A stretch of DNA of 5,249 bases from positions 2,380,521-2,385,769 of the forward strand of contig CP070726.1 in NCBI GenBank assembly GCA_020350865.1, written 5' to 3'. The notes under the pieces were generated by a model. The model searched no databases. It saw only the letters and a program-made list of their open reading frames with translations, and was not told where the DNA came from. Position numbers and translations under genes: made by a program. This document shows positions 1 through 5,249 of the stretch, in pieces. Position 1 is the first letter of the stretch. Every line of letters begins with the position of its first letter. The stretch is from Thermoplasmata archaeon. GTDB lineage: Archaea > Thermoplasmatota > Thermoplasmata > GCA-020350865.

Positions 1-177
1 AGGCAGGGAGGTTTCGATGGATATTGTCTTAATGTCTGTTGAGCAAACAGAAACAGCAACACATTCCTTGGTTTCCTATGCCACCCCTTCCAGGATGTTA
101 GAGAGTTTAAGAGCGTTGCCTCCATATCCTTTCTCGTACGTCTTGTAGTTCACAATTATCACAGGCGTTCTTAGCAT
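1..177 (-). pseudogene. tpiA: Triosephosphate isomerase, 5' part, interrupted by an in-frame TAG; runs off left edge
   Basis: Starting at the ATG at 177 the minus strand encodes MLRTPVIIVNYKTYEKGYGG, then about 13 more residues ending LEGVA. This matches the first beta strand and helix of archaeal triosephosphate isomerase, the glycolytic/gluconeogenic enzyme interconverting dihydroxyacetone phosphate and glyceraldehyde 3-phosphate. The active-site pair of the N-x-K motif is present as Asn10 and Lys12 (codons at 148-150 and 142-144). Codon 34 is TAG (76-78). After it the same frame stays open to the window edge for 25 codons (ETKECVAVSVCSTDIKTISI, then ETSLP). This fits the next part of the family, where a strand is followed by a D-L/I and a Leu/Ile-Pro segment. 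In relatives the TAG position normally holds a sense residue such as Lys or Glu. Possibilities are a nonsense mutation (pseudogene), a sequencing error, or TAG decoded as pyrrolysine. No restart codon is visible between the TAG and the edge. Family identity is from recognition, not a search; the remainder of the gene lies outside the window. Confidence 0.72.
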
Positions 178-311: not shown

Positions 312-956
312 TCATTGAATTGTAGTTCTTTTTATCATCTCGATGCCGTTTTCGGGGCACGTACTCACACATAGGCCGCAGCCGAAGCACTTGTCATCAT
401 GGAATACGAGCAGGTCATCGATGATCTCCCTGGCCCCGAATTGGCATCTCTCCTCACATTCACCGCAGTTGATGCACATTCCCGGGTCGTGTGTGGCTAT
501 GAATTTGGAAGAAAACACATGGTCCGGATATCGAAACCTCAGGGCTGCGCTCATGGAATGACAGCAGCAGGAGCAGCAGCTGCATATGATGTCCACCTTG
601 TCCTTCCCCTCGTAGGTGTAGGCTAAATGCACAAAACCTGCATCATAGGTACGCTTCATGGCCTCCAAGGCATCCTCCACACTGATCCTCTTGGCGACTC
701 CCCTCTCGATTTCCTCTGTTGCCTCGGCATCGAGACTCAGGCAACCGTCCATTGGATCGATACAGTTGCCCATTCTCTTTCTGCAGTAGCATTCCTCCTG
801 TGCTATTACCTCCGCATTATTGAGAATTCCCCTCAGCTCACCCATTTCTATTATCCTATGCTCTCCCGAAAAAGATACGTTGACGGGAATGGTGACAGCC
901 GTCATCTTCCCCACATATTCTTTCTCCAACTCTTCCCTCGTCCAATCCTTCTTCAT
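312..956 (-). CDS. Cysteine-rich 4Fe-4S dicluster ferredoxin-like protein
   Basis: A 214-residue soluble protein with no signal peptide or membrane segment, ending in TGA. The C-terminal third is a double [4Fe-4S] ferredoxin domain: CxxCxxCxxxC at Cys161, 164, 167 and 171, and CxxCxxCxxxCP at Cys190, 193, 196 and 200. The first motif has Gln instead of the usual Pro after its last cysteine. Two more cysteine groups precede it: Cys56, 58, 65 and 72, beginning EECYCRKRMGNC, and the dense run CSCCSCCCH at 125-133. The section between them (about 88-112) resembles the 'EDALE...AGFVH' segment of a family of uncharacterised archaeal and anaerobic bacterial iron-sulfur proteins. Its role is probably electron transfer for an unidentified partner oxidoreductase; the partner and substrate are not visible here. 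The ATG at 956 follows a G-rich sequence (GGGGGG at 963-968, six bases away) that can pair with the 16S tail. It lies 94 bases downstream of the transporter gene and has its own candidate promoter, so co-transcription is not certain. Confidence 0.88.
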   Translation of the reverse strand: MKKDWTREELEKEYVGKMTAVTIPVNVSFSGEHRIIEMGELRGILNNAEVIAQEECYCRKRMGNCIDPMDGCLSLDAEATEEIERGVAKRISVEDALEAMKRTYDAGFVHLAYTYEGKDKVDIICSCCSCCCHSMSAALRFRYPDHVFSSKFIATHDPGMCINCGECEERCQFGAREIIDDLLVFHDDKCFGCGLCVSTCPENGIEMIKRTTIQ

Positions 957-1050: not shown

Positions 1051-2577
1051 CTATACTGGCTCAACCTCTACAAGCTCCAAATCAGGCTCTTTCGGCTCGT
1101 ACAAAGGCATCTGGTTCAGGCGGTCATTTAAGATGATCAAGAAAGCTAGCGCTAGTCCCCATTGTATGACGATGGTCATGAATCCCTCAGCCTCAAGCGG
1201 ATTCCACCAGGAGCCTGGGTGGTTCGCAATAGACTGGCCGAAGAACCACAGCATGAGGAAGGTAAACTGCAGGGGAAACAGGTATTTGATTACATATTCC
1301 CACCATTTGCCGATATACAGGTCGTTCCATTCCGTATTTATGAGTCCCTCCCTGAACTTGGAAACCCCGTACTTCCAAATGGAGAAGGCCACAAACAGGC
1401 CGCTGACTATCAGTCCGAAGGACCACACGTGATCCTGGTTCTTAAGAAAGGCGGGCACTCCCCCGTCCACAACTATCAGGGCGGATGGCAGACCGAAAAC
1501 CAGCATTGCCAAGGATGTGACCCTAAGGGATTTGCTTCTGCTCCATCCATGGTCCATGAAGTTTCTCACCGTGATCTCCATGCCTGAGATCATGGAGGTG
1601 ATGGCGGCAAAGGCCATGGCCAAAAAGAAAATCGCTGCAATGGCAACTCCCCCGGGCATGAGCGTAAACAGTCTTGTCAGGTGAATGAAGGCAAGACCCT
1701 CGTTGCCTGACTGCATGACACCAATGGCCTCGACATTGGTCGATGACAGGGCAAAGACCGTGCAAATGACTGCAATGCCCGCAATGAGGGAGGCTGCGTT
1801 ATTGCCGAAGCCTGCGATGACCGCATTTAACGTGGTGTCCTCCCTTTTCTTCATGTAAACCGCATATGTGATGGCCATGCCAAAACCCGCACTGGTGGAA
1901 AATGCGCTCTGGGAGAGTGCAGACACCCACGTGTCGGCCTTCCACAACGCATTGCCGCGGATGCTGAACATGTATTTCAGGCCGTTCAAGGAACCGGGGA
2001 GTGACAGGGCCCATAACATGGCGATAATCAACAGAATGAACATGCCGGGTATGAGAATCTTGTTGGTCTTTTCGATGCCCTGGGCAATGCCCTTGTAAAC
2101 AACGAACGTGGAAATTCCAATGGCCAGAATCTGAAAGAACACCACCTGGGCGGGGTTGTTTATGAAACCGTCCCACATGACCTCCGTGTCCACACCTTCA
2201 GTCAGCCCTCCAGAAGCCGCCACAGTGAAGTACTTGATGACCCACCCCATGACAACCGCATAGTAGAACATGATGAAGATGTTTACAAGCATCATCCACG
2301 CACCCATCCAGGCATATCTTTTGCCTGCGAATCTTTTGAACGAGCCAATGGTCCCGAATCGGGTGCGTTTTCCTATTGTGAACTCGGCGATAAGCAGCGG
2401 AATGGACCAGGAAAACAGGAACAGAAGCCAGGGAATCATGAAGGCCCCTCCACCGTTCACTGCCGTCTCCCTTGGAAAGCGCCATATGTTCCCTGTGCCG
2501 ATGGCAGCACCCATGGCAGCAAAGATGAGACCCCACCTCGACCCCCACTGTTCTTTCGCCTCACCTTCCCCTGCCAT
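1051..2577 (-). CDS. Sodium-dependent transporter of the neurotransmitter:sodium symporter (SNF/NSS) family
   Basis: A 508-residue integral membrane protein with about 12 hydrophobic segments: roughly 16-40, 46-66, 88-118, 146-162, 174-193, 219-241, 250-279, 304-336, 350-370, 383-400, 430-449 and 464-484. It imports a small substrate, most likely an amino acid, with Na+. Segment 1 carries the family signature GTGNIWRFP and NGGGAF (27-45). Aligned by eye to LeuT, Gly23 and Ile26 with Ala324, Thr327 and Ser328 fit the Na2 site. Ala25, Asn30, Ser227 and Asn259 fit Na1. Ser227 replaces the Thr254 of LeuT but keeps the hydroxyl. There is no acidic residue in segment 1 of the kind found in monoamine carriers, so a neutral amino acid is favoured; the exact substrate cannot be read. 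The ATG at 2577 has GGTGA four bases upstream. It starts 24 bases after the peptidase stop, so the two are probably one operon, pairing extracellular peptide trimming with uptake. The stop is TAG; read through, the frame would add 12 residues before TGA. Confidence 0.95.
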   Translation of the reverse strand: MAGEGEAKEQWGSRWGLIFAAMGAAIGTGNIWRFPRETAVNGGGAFMIPWLLFLFSWSIPLLIAEFTIGKRTRFGTIGSFKRFAGKRYAWMGAWMMLVNIFIMFYYAVVMGWVIKYFTVAASGGLTEGVDTEVMWDGFINNPAQVVFFQILAIGISTFVVYKGIAQGIEKTNKILIPGMFILLIIAMLWALSLPGSLNGLKYMFSIRGNALWKADTWVSALSQSAFSTSAGFGMAITYAVYMKKREDTTLNAVIAGFGNNAASLIAGIAVICTVFALSSTNVEAIGVMQSGNEGLAFIHLTRLFTLMPGGVAIAAIFFLAMAFAAITSMISGMEITVRNFMDHGWSRSKSLRVTSLAMLVFGLPSALIVVDGGVPAFLKNQDHVWSFGLIVSGLFVAFSIWKYGVSKFREGLINTEWNDLYIGKWWEYVIKYLFPLQFTFLMLWFFGQSIANHPGSWWNPLEAEGFMTIVIQWGLALAFLIILNDRLNQMPLYEPKEPDLELVEVEPV

Positions 2578-2581
2578 CGGT

Positions 2582-2586
2582 TCACC
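2582..2586 (-). promoter_or_regulatory. Ribosome binding site of the transporter gene
   Basis: The minus strand reads GGTGA, four bases before the ATG at 2577. It matches the GGAGGTGA complement of the archaeal 16S rRNA 3' end. It supports this start, and it supports translation of the transporter as an internal cistron of a peptidase-transporter mRNA rather than from a leaderless transcript. Confidence 0.6.
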
Positions 2587-2601
2587 CGAAAATTACTGCC
2601 A

Positions 2602-4461
2602 TCAGACTGAACTCTTTCGTTTCTCTGCCTCTACTGCCATCTTCAGCGACTTGCCCAATCCAGAATAAACGATACCGAAGATCAAAACCATCATGATGAT
2701 CATGGCCGCGATATCTCCAAACGTATCACCAAGGCTGATATCAACGAAGTACGAGTATGGATCGTACCGGCCGTATTTGGGTGTGCTGACATAGATGACC
2801 TCGCTGATGCTCTTGGCTTCATTGTAATTAGCTTTACCCTCGATATAGTAATAGACTTTTTTACCGCCCTTCTGCCGGGGAATCGTGGCGCTGTAATGCA
2901 CTTCATCCCTGGTATTCATGCGTTTCTCTTTCCATTCCCCGGATTCACCCACCTTGTAATACAGATAAATAGAGTTTTTATTGAGGTTCCCTGCATTCGA
3001 CAGCTCAACTTCCACTGTATACGAGAAGTCGGAATTGATCACCGTCTTCTTCTGGGTGTGATTGATCACCGGCAGCCCGATGTCCAGATTCGGAATGAAC
3101 CGCTCCCTGGCCACCTCCATTACGGGGGCATTTTCCGCAAGATAGAGATGGCTGGGAAGAATCAGCATGCTTATGTTTATCAATTCCTCTTCGGGGACCT
3201 TGCGCACGGTTCCCAGCTCAAAAGTGTATGCTAATATTCTGTGTATTCCGTAGAGCCAGTCGTCCACGTCACCGCTTGTGGGATAGAGCTCGGTTCCTTG
3301 GATGACATCGTAACCGCAGGACTCGGACATCTCCTCGCCCATGAACTGGAAGAGTGCGTCATTTGGTGTGGGCTCACTGGTGTATCCCCATGGGTATATG
3401 ATAAGTTCGCTGAACGTGTGGTGCGAAATGGAGGCGATGATGTCCGATTGACCGTCATCGTTCCAGTCCAGCAATTCAACAAGATTGGCTATGGCCAGGG
3501 TTTCGGGTTCAGATAATCCCCCATCGGGGTCCTCGTCGATTTTACCGTCGTTATCGTCATCCAATCCGTTAACAGGGTCCTCATCCACGTTATTGGGATC
3601 CTGCCTCCACCTGAATATTCCTGGGCGGTATTCCTCCTGAATCCAGCTGTCGCCGTCATCGTCGTAACCATCCTTGGGTCCCCTGTACTCGCTGGCCTGG
3701 GGATTGGGCGTGTCCATGGTCTGGCCTGTGCCCGGGTCGTACGGGCTGCCCCACATGTAGGGATAGTTCCTGTTGGTGTTAACGCCGTCTGTTGGAACGG
3801 TTTCGCCAAAGAGGCCGGGTACGGTTTCCCTGCCGTTCTTCCGCGTATCCGCCACCACGCCGTCGGGGTTCTGCATGGGTACTATCCATATCTCCCTGTT
3901 GTCCACAAGCCATGTTGCCCTGCCCTCGATTCCATCCTCATCTATTGCGCCGTCACCATCGTCATCCAAACCATTGATGGGGTCCTCGTTGATCTCGCCG
4001 TCCCCATCATCATCGGTAGGCTCCATCCCGTAGTTCTCCACCAGGTAGAAAAGGAAGTACATTGCGACTTCAAAGCCTGTCCACTCGCTTCCGTGATGGG
4101 CCCCCATAATTAAGATGTCCGCTTCCTCTGGGTCGCTGTAATAATCGGGTTCGCTATCCACACCGTCCGAGACCTTCACAGCCCAGACCTTTCGTCCCTG
4201 CCATGTTTCGTCGGGAATACCCTTCCTGTTCTCATCTATAGTGGCTGTTATATCGTAAACCTTGACAATCTCAGGGTATCTGGTTGTGATATTGTTGAAG
4301 GCATCCAGCATGGAATCGTAAGTGAAGTACTCCTGAAAATAAGCGTGAAAATCCTCTTGGGCGCCATTCTCCTCGGGTCCATCGGAGGCCAAGGCTTGCG
4401 ATTCCGCTACATTTGCGAGGATTAACAGAAGCAGTAATACAGCCAGTCCGCGCTTCATCAT
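2602..4461 (-). CDS. Secreted, membrane-anchored M14 zinc carboxypeptidase with calcium-type loop insertions
   Basis: A 619-residue protein counted from the ATG at 4461; three further codons extend to a TTG at 4470. A signal peptide occupies residues 1-25 (Lys-Arg, a Leu-rich core, then ALA before Ser). The M14 metallocarboxypeptidase domain follows. Zinc ligands are His123 and Glu126 (HGSEW) and His348 (HTFSEL). Other active-site residues are the NPDG motif at 198-201, substrate-binding Asn230-Arg231 in NTNRNY, Tyr393 and catalytic Glu415 in YTFELG, so the enzyme should be active. It removes C-terminal amino acids from peptides outside the cell. Asp400, in the SGDVDDW segment, falls where carboxypeptidase B has its Asp255, hinting at a preference for Lys/Arg ends; this is weak inference. 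Two acidic DxDxDG-rich insertions interrupt the domain. A beta-sandwich-like region spans about 460-560, then a membrane helix (about 581-601) and a Lys/Arg-rich tail. It sits 24 bases upstream of the transporter gene. The stop is TGA. The family call is firm; the specificity is not. Confidence 0.93.
   Translation of the reverse strand: MMKRGLAVLLLLLILANVAESQALASDGPEENGAQEDFHAYFQEYFTYDSMLDAFNNITTRYPEIVKVYDITATIDENRKGIPDETWQGRKVWAVKVSDGVDSEPDYYSDPEEADILIMGAHHGSEWTGFEVAMYFLFYLVENYGMEPTDDDGDGEINEDPINGLDDDGDGAIDEDGIEGRATWLVDNREIWIVPMQNPDGVVADTRKNGRETVPGLFGETVPTDGVNTNRNYPYMWGSPYDPGTGQTMDTPNPQASEYRGPKDGYDDDGDSWIQEEYRPGIFRWRQDPNNVDEDPVNGLDDDNDGKIDEDPDGGLSEPETLAIANLVELLDWNDDGQSDIIASISHHTFSELIIYPWGYTSEPTPNDALFQFMGEEMSESCGYDVIQGTELYPTSGDVDDWLYGIHRILAYTFELGTVRKVPEEELINISMLILPSHLYLAENAPVMEVARERFIPNLDIGLPVINHTQKKTVINSDFSYTVEVELSNAGNLNKNSIYLYYKVGESGEWKEKRMNTRDEVHYSATIPRQKGGKKVYYYIEGKANYNEAKSISEVIYVSTPKYGRYDPYSYFVDISLGDTFGDIAAMIIMMVLIFGIVYSGLGKSLKMAVEAEKRKSSV
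3514..3675 (-). other. Second calcium-type insertion in the M14 domain, splitting YRGP from SEPET
   Basis: In M14 enzymes the segment Y-x-G-P is normally followed within a few residues by S-E-P-E-T. Here YRGP (259-262) and SEPET (317-321) are separated by 54 residues. These contain two aspartate-rich loops, YDDDGDSWIQEE (266-277) and LDDDNDGKIDED (300-311). The Asp-x-Asp-x-Asp-Gly spacing resembles thrombospondin type 3 or EF-hand-like calcium loops. A further loop, DWNDDGQSDI (332-341), lies just after. Calcium binding is inferred from the motifs alone. Confidence 0.7.
3554..3582 (-). repeat. Coding repeat, copy 1 (EDPxNGLDD unit)
   Basis: This 29-base stretch is closely repeated at 3959-3987, differing at only a few positions. 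Both encode an E-D-P-[IV]-N-G-L-D-D unit, followed by the rest of a DxDxDG loop, in the two insertions of the carboxypeptidase. The likeness at DNA level suggests that one insertion arose by copying of the other, though selection on the same peptide could also keep them similar. Confidence 0.5.
3931..4014 (-). other. First calcium-type insertion in the M14 domain
   Basis: Residues 150-177 hold two tandem acidic loops, DDDGDGEINED (150-160) and LDDDGDGAIDED (165-176), between the zinc motif HGSEW and the NPDG motif. The zinc Glu to NPDG distance is 72 residues, around 30 more than in pancreatic carboxypeptidase A by my recollection of that sequence, so this looks like an insertion. Calcium binding is inferred. 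Confidence 0.7.
3959..3987 (-). repeat. Coding repeat, copy 2 (EDPxNGLDD unit)
   Basis: Partner of the stretch at 3554-3582, about 405 bases away and in the same reading frame. It links the first insertion's two loops. The differences are clustered around the I/V-N-G codons. Confidence 0.5.
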
Positions 4462-4492
4462 TGTAACCAACCTGGTATTATGTTCACTATGC

Positions 4493-4522: not shown

Positions 4523-4575
4523 GATTGGATGGTCTCAGGGTGCATCCATTTACAGAAAATACAGATATAGATTAC

Positions 4576-5249
4576 CTAGGGCCAAGGTTCTGCTTCTTTC
4601 CAGAAATGCCCGAATATGGCATCCACCCACCGCCTGAAGGATTCATCCTCGCCAATCAATCCCATGCTGTAATCCACTTTGCCACGGGCATCCCTTATGG
4701 CCACACCCGCCATTTTCTCGGTCATCTTGAGACCAAGTGGCACCATCTTTAGGGTTCTGATTTCGAAACTCTCCCCTGTTCTGGACCTGTACTCCTTGGG
4801 GATATCGGCATCCTCCGGATATATCTTCTTTATTACCACGCCCTCGTCGTTCTTTTTACTGTCCAGCTCCACCAATCCTCTCATCACTTCCACAGATATC
4901 ACATGGATATATTCTTCGGCATTGATGCTCGCTTCTTTGATTATCGACGAAGTCTCCAGTGTACCCGAGGTAAAGCTTCCTTTGGCCATGGAATCGAGCC
5001 AATGAAGGTGTTCCGGTAGGTGCGAGAGGTCGTGAGCGAGAAAAAAGTCGATATTTTTGGTGAGGAATTCCAGCTTCGCAATCTCACCGATTATTATTGC
5101 GGAAAATGGGGTGATGCTGTAGTTGCTATCACTGTCCCGGTCAATCAATTTGGCCTTTGACAGCCTATCCAGATGTCTGGACACTTCTGCTGTTGTGATC
5201 TCCAGTTTTTTCGAAAGTGCGGACAGCCTCATGGGCTCCTCCCTTAACA
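4576..5249 (-). CDS. Archaeal winged-helix transcriptional regulator of the FilR1/COG4742 type, N-terminus beyond the right edge
   Basis: Residues are counted from the ATG at 5232. An HTH with its recognition helix at about 13-30 (TTAEVSRHLDRLSKAKLI) is followed by a short wing (NYSITP). Then comes the segment FFLAHDLSHLPE (63-74), a hallmark of the archaeal FilR1-type family. The rest, to about residue 215, resembles that family's alpha/beta sensor domain. It probably binds DNA as a dimer and senses an unknown signal. The frame is open upstream of this ATG to the window edge, adding L-R-E-E-P. In relatives the first HTH helix ends with just such a sequence before the MRLSAL position, so the true start probably lies outside the window and this Met is internal. 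Against that, AGGGAGGAG just before the ATG could serve as a ribosome binding site. It ends in TAG, 114 bases before the peptidase ATG, and may control that unit. The family call is fairly firm; the target and ligand are unknown. Confidence 0.83.
   Translation of the reverse strand, partial: LREEPMRLSALSKKLEITTAEVSRHLDRLSKAKLIDRDSDSNYSITPFSAIIIGEIAKLEFLTKNIDFFLAHDLSHLPEHLHWLDSMAKGSFTSGTLETSSIIKEASINAEEYIHVISVEVMRGLVELDSKKNDEGVVIKKIYPEDADIPKEYRSRTGESFEIRTLKMVPLGLKMTEKMAGVAIRDARGKVDYSMGLIGEDESFRRWVDAIFGHFWKEAEPWP

Follow-up and report, generated by a model that had tools for sequence, protein, structure and literature searches.

Organization of the window

All genes of the window, by which the whole analysed stretch of 5,249 nucleotides is meant, lie on the minus strand (Table 1). 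The frames of the four genes besides that of triosephosphate isomerase (TIM) are open; these genes are complete, with TAG as the stop in two of them and TGA in the other two.

Table 1. Features of the window.
Feature	Position	Strand	Basis and remarks
TIM gene, codons 1-59, truncated by the window edge, with Asn10 and Lys12	1..177	-	NF003302, TIGR00419; orthologues 66% and 59% identical
In-frame TAG, TIM codon 34	76..78	-	ORF reading; Glu codon in both close relatives
Conserved leader/promoter region ahead of the TIM start codon	178..227	-	45/50 bases identical to G434, 42/50 to G429
4Fe-4S ferredoxin-domain protein, ends in TGA	312..956	-	ORF and Pfam; between transporter and TIM, absent there in G434
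SNF-family sodium-dependent transporter, ends in TAG where that of G434 does	1051..2577	-	ORF and Pfam
M14 zinc carboxypeptidase, ends in TGA	2602..4470	-	ORF and Pfam
Winged-helix regulator; its FilR1-like middle domain scores under the Pfam cut-off; ends in TAG	4576..5232	-	ORF and Pfam

Two close relatives, here called G429 and G434, were found in a draw of 235 genomes; their transporters are 83% and 82% identical to that of the window. The gene order in G434 is regulator, M14 peptidase, SNF transporter and TIM, with 164 bases from the transporter stop to the TIM start. The window shows the same order, plus the ferredoxin gene (312-956), which parts the two genes that adjoin in G434 and has its closest homologue in G429 at 1.60 Mb. 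Judged by gene order, it appears to be an insertion or rearrangement. In G429, TIM lies about 30 kb away from the SNF gene. A single TAG recorded in the ferredoxin matches of two further genomes (G382 and G018) proved to be the normal terminal stop.

An M14 gene is located directly upstream of the SNF transporter gene on the same strand, as in the window (1051-4470), in 41 of 97 transporter-match loci (L001-L098, of which L001 and L082 coincide; 8 of the others include less than 1 kb of upstream sequence). The two genes perhaps form a peptide-degrading and uptake pair. The translated M14 protein contains stretches rich in Asp that resemble DxDxDG, as well as a hydrophobic segment at the C terminus, and may perhaps be calcium-binding and membrane-anchored.

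Ten bases including the stop codon, TAGGTAATCT, recur at the end of both the transporter and the regulator gene (1044-1053 and 4569-4578, minus strand). Allowing one mismatch, the expected number of matches is 0.23, and two or more occurred in 4 of 200 shuffles. The motif is not conserved at the corresponding gene ends of the two relatives. A near-match search against plasmids gave no match to the window, and no transporter match at E≤1e-120 was found in 80 genomes of the class of G100. A scan for sigma-70 promoters and terminators was set aside, since the organism is an archaeon.

A triosephosphate isomerase fragment with an in-frame TAG

Read on the minus strand from 177 to 1, the window translates as MLRTPVIIVNYKTYEKGYGGNALKLSNILEGVA*ETKECVAVSVCSTDIKTISIETSLP. 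This corresponds to 59 of about 224 TIM codons, and about 165 codons lie beyond the edge. Codon 34 is an in-frame TAG (76-78), behind which 25 further codons continue in the same frame up to a Leu-Pro at the window edge, and no second stop occurs within these 25 codons. Both Asn10 and Lys12, which we take to be catalytic residues of TIM, are present, and their columns are invariant in an alignment of 157 archaeal TIMs (120 of the sequences from one single search). Position 34, by comparison, is very variable in these proteins.

The archaeal TIM model NF003302 matches residues 3-58 of the fragment (59 residues, X at the stop) with an E value of 2.1e-9, so that the match runs across the stop. 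A second archaeal TIM model, TIGR00419, matches residues 6-55 (E 5.1e-5). The scores are far below the whole-protein cut-offs of both models (for NF003302 37.5 bits vs 132), because the window holds just a quarter of TIM. Pfam gave no family at E≤1 for the 59 residues. When the fragment was compared by sequence with three archaeal TIM chains, E values of 0.0006, 0.0009 and 0.015 were obtained, and it resembles the solved chains 1hg3, 2h6r and 1w0m in sequence and catalytic residues; from known archaeal TIM it differs by the one in-frame TAG at codon 34. When the bases of the 25-codon stretch past the TAG were shuffled, a stop was present in 76% of the trials. The identity of the gene is beyond chance, because its orthologues in G429 and G434 are 66% and 59% identical over all 59 residues.

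Intact orthologues in the two close relatives

Both relatives possess an intact TIM orthologue of 224 codons, and these full-length proteins exceed the cut-offs of NF003302 and TIGR00419 (311.5 and 312.6 bits). Alignment at codon 34 revealed Glu in G429 as well as in G434; the in-frame TAG is thus not kept in these relatives. The 50 bases ahead of the TIM ATG, which are conserved between the window and both genomes (Table 1), agree at 42 of 50 positions between G429 and G434. Locus and leader of the window gene are therefore like those of the intact orthologues, from which it follows that this is the ordinary TIM of the lineage with a conserved control region. The first-pass annotation had described a TIM gene interrupted by TAG at codon 34 and a homologous frame past it; frame reading, both family models and the orthologues agree with this description.

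No second TIM was found in the searched DNA of the relatives, which included 2.2 of 3.2 Mb of G429, where one TIM was seen. With the TIM of another genome (G031) as query, nothing from the window's own contig was among the best 120 of 7,972 matches. An earlier search, for which the fragment had been joined to another TIM, yielded one candidate and no match and had suggested that no close relative has this TIM; this was wrong and the search insensitive, because the G429 orthologue is 66% identical.

Age of the stop

If the gene were an older pseudogene in decay, loss of coding constraint would be expected past the stop, and some values point in this direction. The GC content at third positions (GC3) of codons 35-59 is 0.40, compared to a mean of 0.65 in the neighbouring genes (294 windows of 25 codons). 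The downstream half of the fragment scores below all but 1 of the 157 TIMs, and the upstream half reaches 49.1 bits vs 56.7 and 55.9 in the relatives, which is about 7 bits lower. However, the same codons of the intact orthologues have a GC3 of 0.20 in G434 and 0.60 in G429, and the downstream score of the window (28.4) is no worse than that of the intact G434 gene (28.7; G429 32.5). There is thus no loss of coding constraint in that half. Together with the conserved leader, the conserved catalytic residues and 25 visible codons free of a second stop, these values make an older pseudogene very improbable. Decay had previously been considered on the grounds of a fragment that was an outlier relative to the divergence of the transporter, a poor family score and odd codon use, and was dropped, as the intact orthologues are similar in the downstream half.

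The differences between the window and the two relatives within codons 35-59 (8, 4 and 13, and 9, 7 and 17, at codon positions 1, 2 and 3) resemble those between G429 and G434 (7, 4 and 17). The third-position share is 0.52 in both comparisons with the window and 0.61 for the intact pair; taken alone, the third-position bias past the stop is not significant (P 0.087 and 0.078). The window has five specific TIM residues ahead of the stop and five past it, while the corresponding numbers around codon 34 are 2 and 1 in G429 and 2 and 5 in G434. Because the leader and the frame past the stop are conserved and both relatives have Glu, the stop is either not real or of recent origin.

Is TAG decoded in this lineage?

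Decoding of TAG, as pyrrolysine or by another amber suppressor, would yield a full-length TIM; pyrrolysine was among the alternatives of the first-pass annotation. The intact frame would fit, and the variable codon 34 would tolerate many residues. Also in amber codons decoded as pyrrolysine, as in Methanomassiliicoccales (PMC4153887) and Sifarchaeia (PMC9723677), an in-frame TAG lies in a conserved gene and the frame is kept. In favor of decoding, 16 predicted TAG-containing proteins are reported for 'Ca. M. alvus' besides the methylamine methyltransferases (PMC4153887).

An argument against decoding is that the relatives of the window commonly use TAG as a stop and differ in this respect from those pyrrolysine systems. 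TAG ends 291 of 1,231 ORFs in G429 (24%; ORFs of at least 150 amino acids) and 28 of 114 in G434 (25%; 200 kb), so the reduced TAG usage that is usual, with exceptions, in pyrrolysine decoders is not seen in either genome. Figures given in PMC4153887 for gene ends in TAG are 1.6% for 'Ca. M. alvus', 4-5% for Methanosarcina and 11.3% for M. luminyensis. Two TAG ends among the four complete genes of the window, a small sample, would have a probability of 0.0015 to 0.066 at rates of 1.6-11.3%, vs 0.245 at 24%. The transporter genes of the window and of G434 share the position of their TAG stop, and the G434 TIM itself terminates in TAG. Frequent use of TAG as a stop is not by itself sufficient to exclude pyrrolysine, because both are reported together for Sifarchaeia (PMC9723677).

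For PylS, the 2.2 Mb of G429 that were searched (from a total of 3.2 Mb; 28.7 kb masked) gave nothing above weak matches of 27-30%, which are taken to be other synthetases. No tRNA with a CTA anticodon was among the 22 tRNAs found in these 2.2 Mb with introns allowed (11 without), a clearly incomplete set that makes this a weak negative. Among 389 genomes drawn from the phylum, 36 have PylS above the cut-off. No such PylS occurs in the 18 genomes that have a transporter match (G022 has a sub-threshold match), in the 5 that have a ferredoxin match or in the 37 of the order of G360. The regulator lends decoding some support: a search of 68 genomes gave four homologues, and 2 of these 4, with 25-27% identity, occur in PylS-bearing genomes. 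An all-TAG pyrrolysine code exists in some archaea; our literature search returned nothing on such an archaeal code.

Taken together, a decoded TAG in TIM is quite improbable, and the pyrrolysine reading is not supported.

Lone in-frame stops in the closest genome

G429 was scanned for stops that are flanked on either side by coding-like sequence. Under one filter set, 10 of 38 such stops were TAG (test for an excess relative to the frequency of TAG at ORF ends, P 0.39), and over five threshold sets P was 0.35, 0.09, 0.07, 0.39 and 0.60. TAG was hence somewhat over-represented at two of the five, which would agree with decoding. A wider list held 87 candidates (TGA 33, TAA 29, TAG 25), and the top 40 of them (TGA 16, TAG 15, TAA 9) were submitted to Pfam; an earlier run had covered 8 of 14. 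In 5 of the 40, a Pfam domain runs across the stop: SRP54 and PAPS_reduct with TAG, POR with TAA, and CPSase_L_D2 and UbiA with TGA. The other 35 have the look of adjacent genes, no Pfam match, or one that is too marginal.

In the SRP54 gene (L207:17500-19998, minus strand), the in-frame TAG lies within the GTPase domain and the M domain then follows in frame. SRP54 is generally essential, and no second copy was found in the 2.2 Mb of G429. A CopA-like gene with the domain order HMA-YHS-YHS-ATPase (L165:10178-11140, minus strand) has a TAG between its YHS domains, where G434 has Lys. Past this TAG there are a Shine-Dalgarno-like stretch and, three codons on, a GTG; therefore, the gene may be split and is not counted as firm. 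Both TAGs would be compatible with decoding. The PAPS_reduct frame has another stop 36 codons on. POR has paralogues at 76% and 57% in the same genome, and UbiA has weak ones, so the stops in these two could be those of real pseudogenes. Two candidates were left out of the count, namely AsnA, where the match passes the stop by 5 residues only, and a Fer4_16 match in L232, which is weak, has no stretch passing alone and spans a gene boundary.

The stops within domains are not specific for TAG. TAG accounts for 2 of these 5 stops (3 of 6 if the CopA-like gene is included), and single-base changes would be expected to give it a share of 0.40 (P 0.66 and 0.46); the shares expected from codon usage are 0.40 for TAG, 0.36 for TAA and 0.23 for TGA. 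Decoding of TAG is improbable, and its only positive support is the stop in TIM itself and the TAGs in the relative, which are matched by the TAA and TGA cases. Highly improbable is also the related reading that the lineage reads some TAGs through in core genes, i.e. in the TIM of the window and in SRP54 and the CopA-like ATPase of G429, with a suppressor that may not be the known PylS and with TAG still a common stop.

A two-way comparison, based on 64 and 77 best matches with at least 50% identity, revealed 9 and 4 stops inside the alignments. Nine of these 13 lie within about the first 35 or the last 3 residues of the query. The remaining four are the TAG of the CopA-like gene, a TAA at position 80 of 415, and a TAA (residue 8) and a TAG in ORF o116, which is the antisense of another ORF.

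Stops of all kinds in such genes of G429 are best read as consensus errors of a metagenome assembly or as strain variants. They are like the stop in TIM in being single, with the frame kept and a conserved domain or orthologue on both sides; they differ from it in gene and genome, and in that each of the three stop codons is represented. With about 6 detected events per 2.2 Mb, a window of 5.2 kb holds one with a chance of about 0.014, and scanning many windows will turn up such lone stops. Our literature search found nothing on premature stops in long-read assemblies.

Error or mutation

Observed are an in-frame TAG, intact orthologues with the same leader, a frame that stays conserved past the stop, relatives that use TAG as an ordinary stop, and lone stops of all three kinds within conserved domains in the record of the nearest relative. 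The most probable explanation, to which we assign a probability of roughly 0.57, is that an isolated one-base change has placed a nonsense codon in the record of a TIM gene that is otherwise intact and conserved, most likely through a consensus error in a metagenome assembly or the base of a minor strain. The living cells would then have a sense codon at this site and produce an ordinary TIM. We infer that the base is wrong rather than truly and recently mutated, that the about 165 codons beyond the edge are intact and that the window stems from the same kind of assembly as G429.

A true, very recent nonsense mutation, with TIM lost or its role covered by a second isomerase or by dihydroxyacetone phosphate from elsewhere, is rather unlikely. 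All signs of a young stop suit it, and they fit equally well with an error. The records of the relatives do look good, as none of 55 and 63 orthologue comparisons contained a frame-changed pair, from which it follows that these records are not grossly error-prone. Further points speak against an error: the record of the window is that of a different genome from G429, POR and UbiA of G429 could be real pseudogenes, and the PAPS_reduct frame has its second stop. On the other hand, TIM is a core enzyme, and because only one TIM was seen in 2.2 of 3.2 Mb of G429, its true loss should be costly. Our literature search found nothing relevant on TIM pseudogenes. An error is more likely than a true mutation.

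The expectation of the first-pass annotation that a plain knockout would be surprising is consistent with the one TIM seen in the searched 2.2 of 3.2 Mb of the closest genome. Of the alternatives that it lists, the best fit is an erroneous base or a nonsense change of very recent date, whereas decoding as pyrrolysine is not supported, with TAG ending about one quarter of the ORFs in both relatives, the transporter TAG placed as in G434, no PylS in the part of G429 that was searched and lone stops that are not restricted to TAG.

Biological meaning

A decoded TAG would make a core enzyme of sugar metabolism reliant on an expanded genetic code, in a lineage in which no sign of such a code was found. 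As it stands, the finding calls for caution, since the record of a relative contains lone in-frame stops of every kind within conserved genes. A single TAG in a core gene is not evidence of recoding, because all kinds of stops occur and TAG is the most expected of them (0.40). The finding is a correct reading of the sequence, and it is best explained by a one-base nonsense event without wider meaning, probably an error, in the ordinary TIM gene of this lineage.
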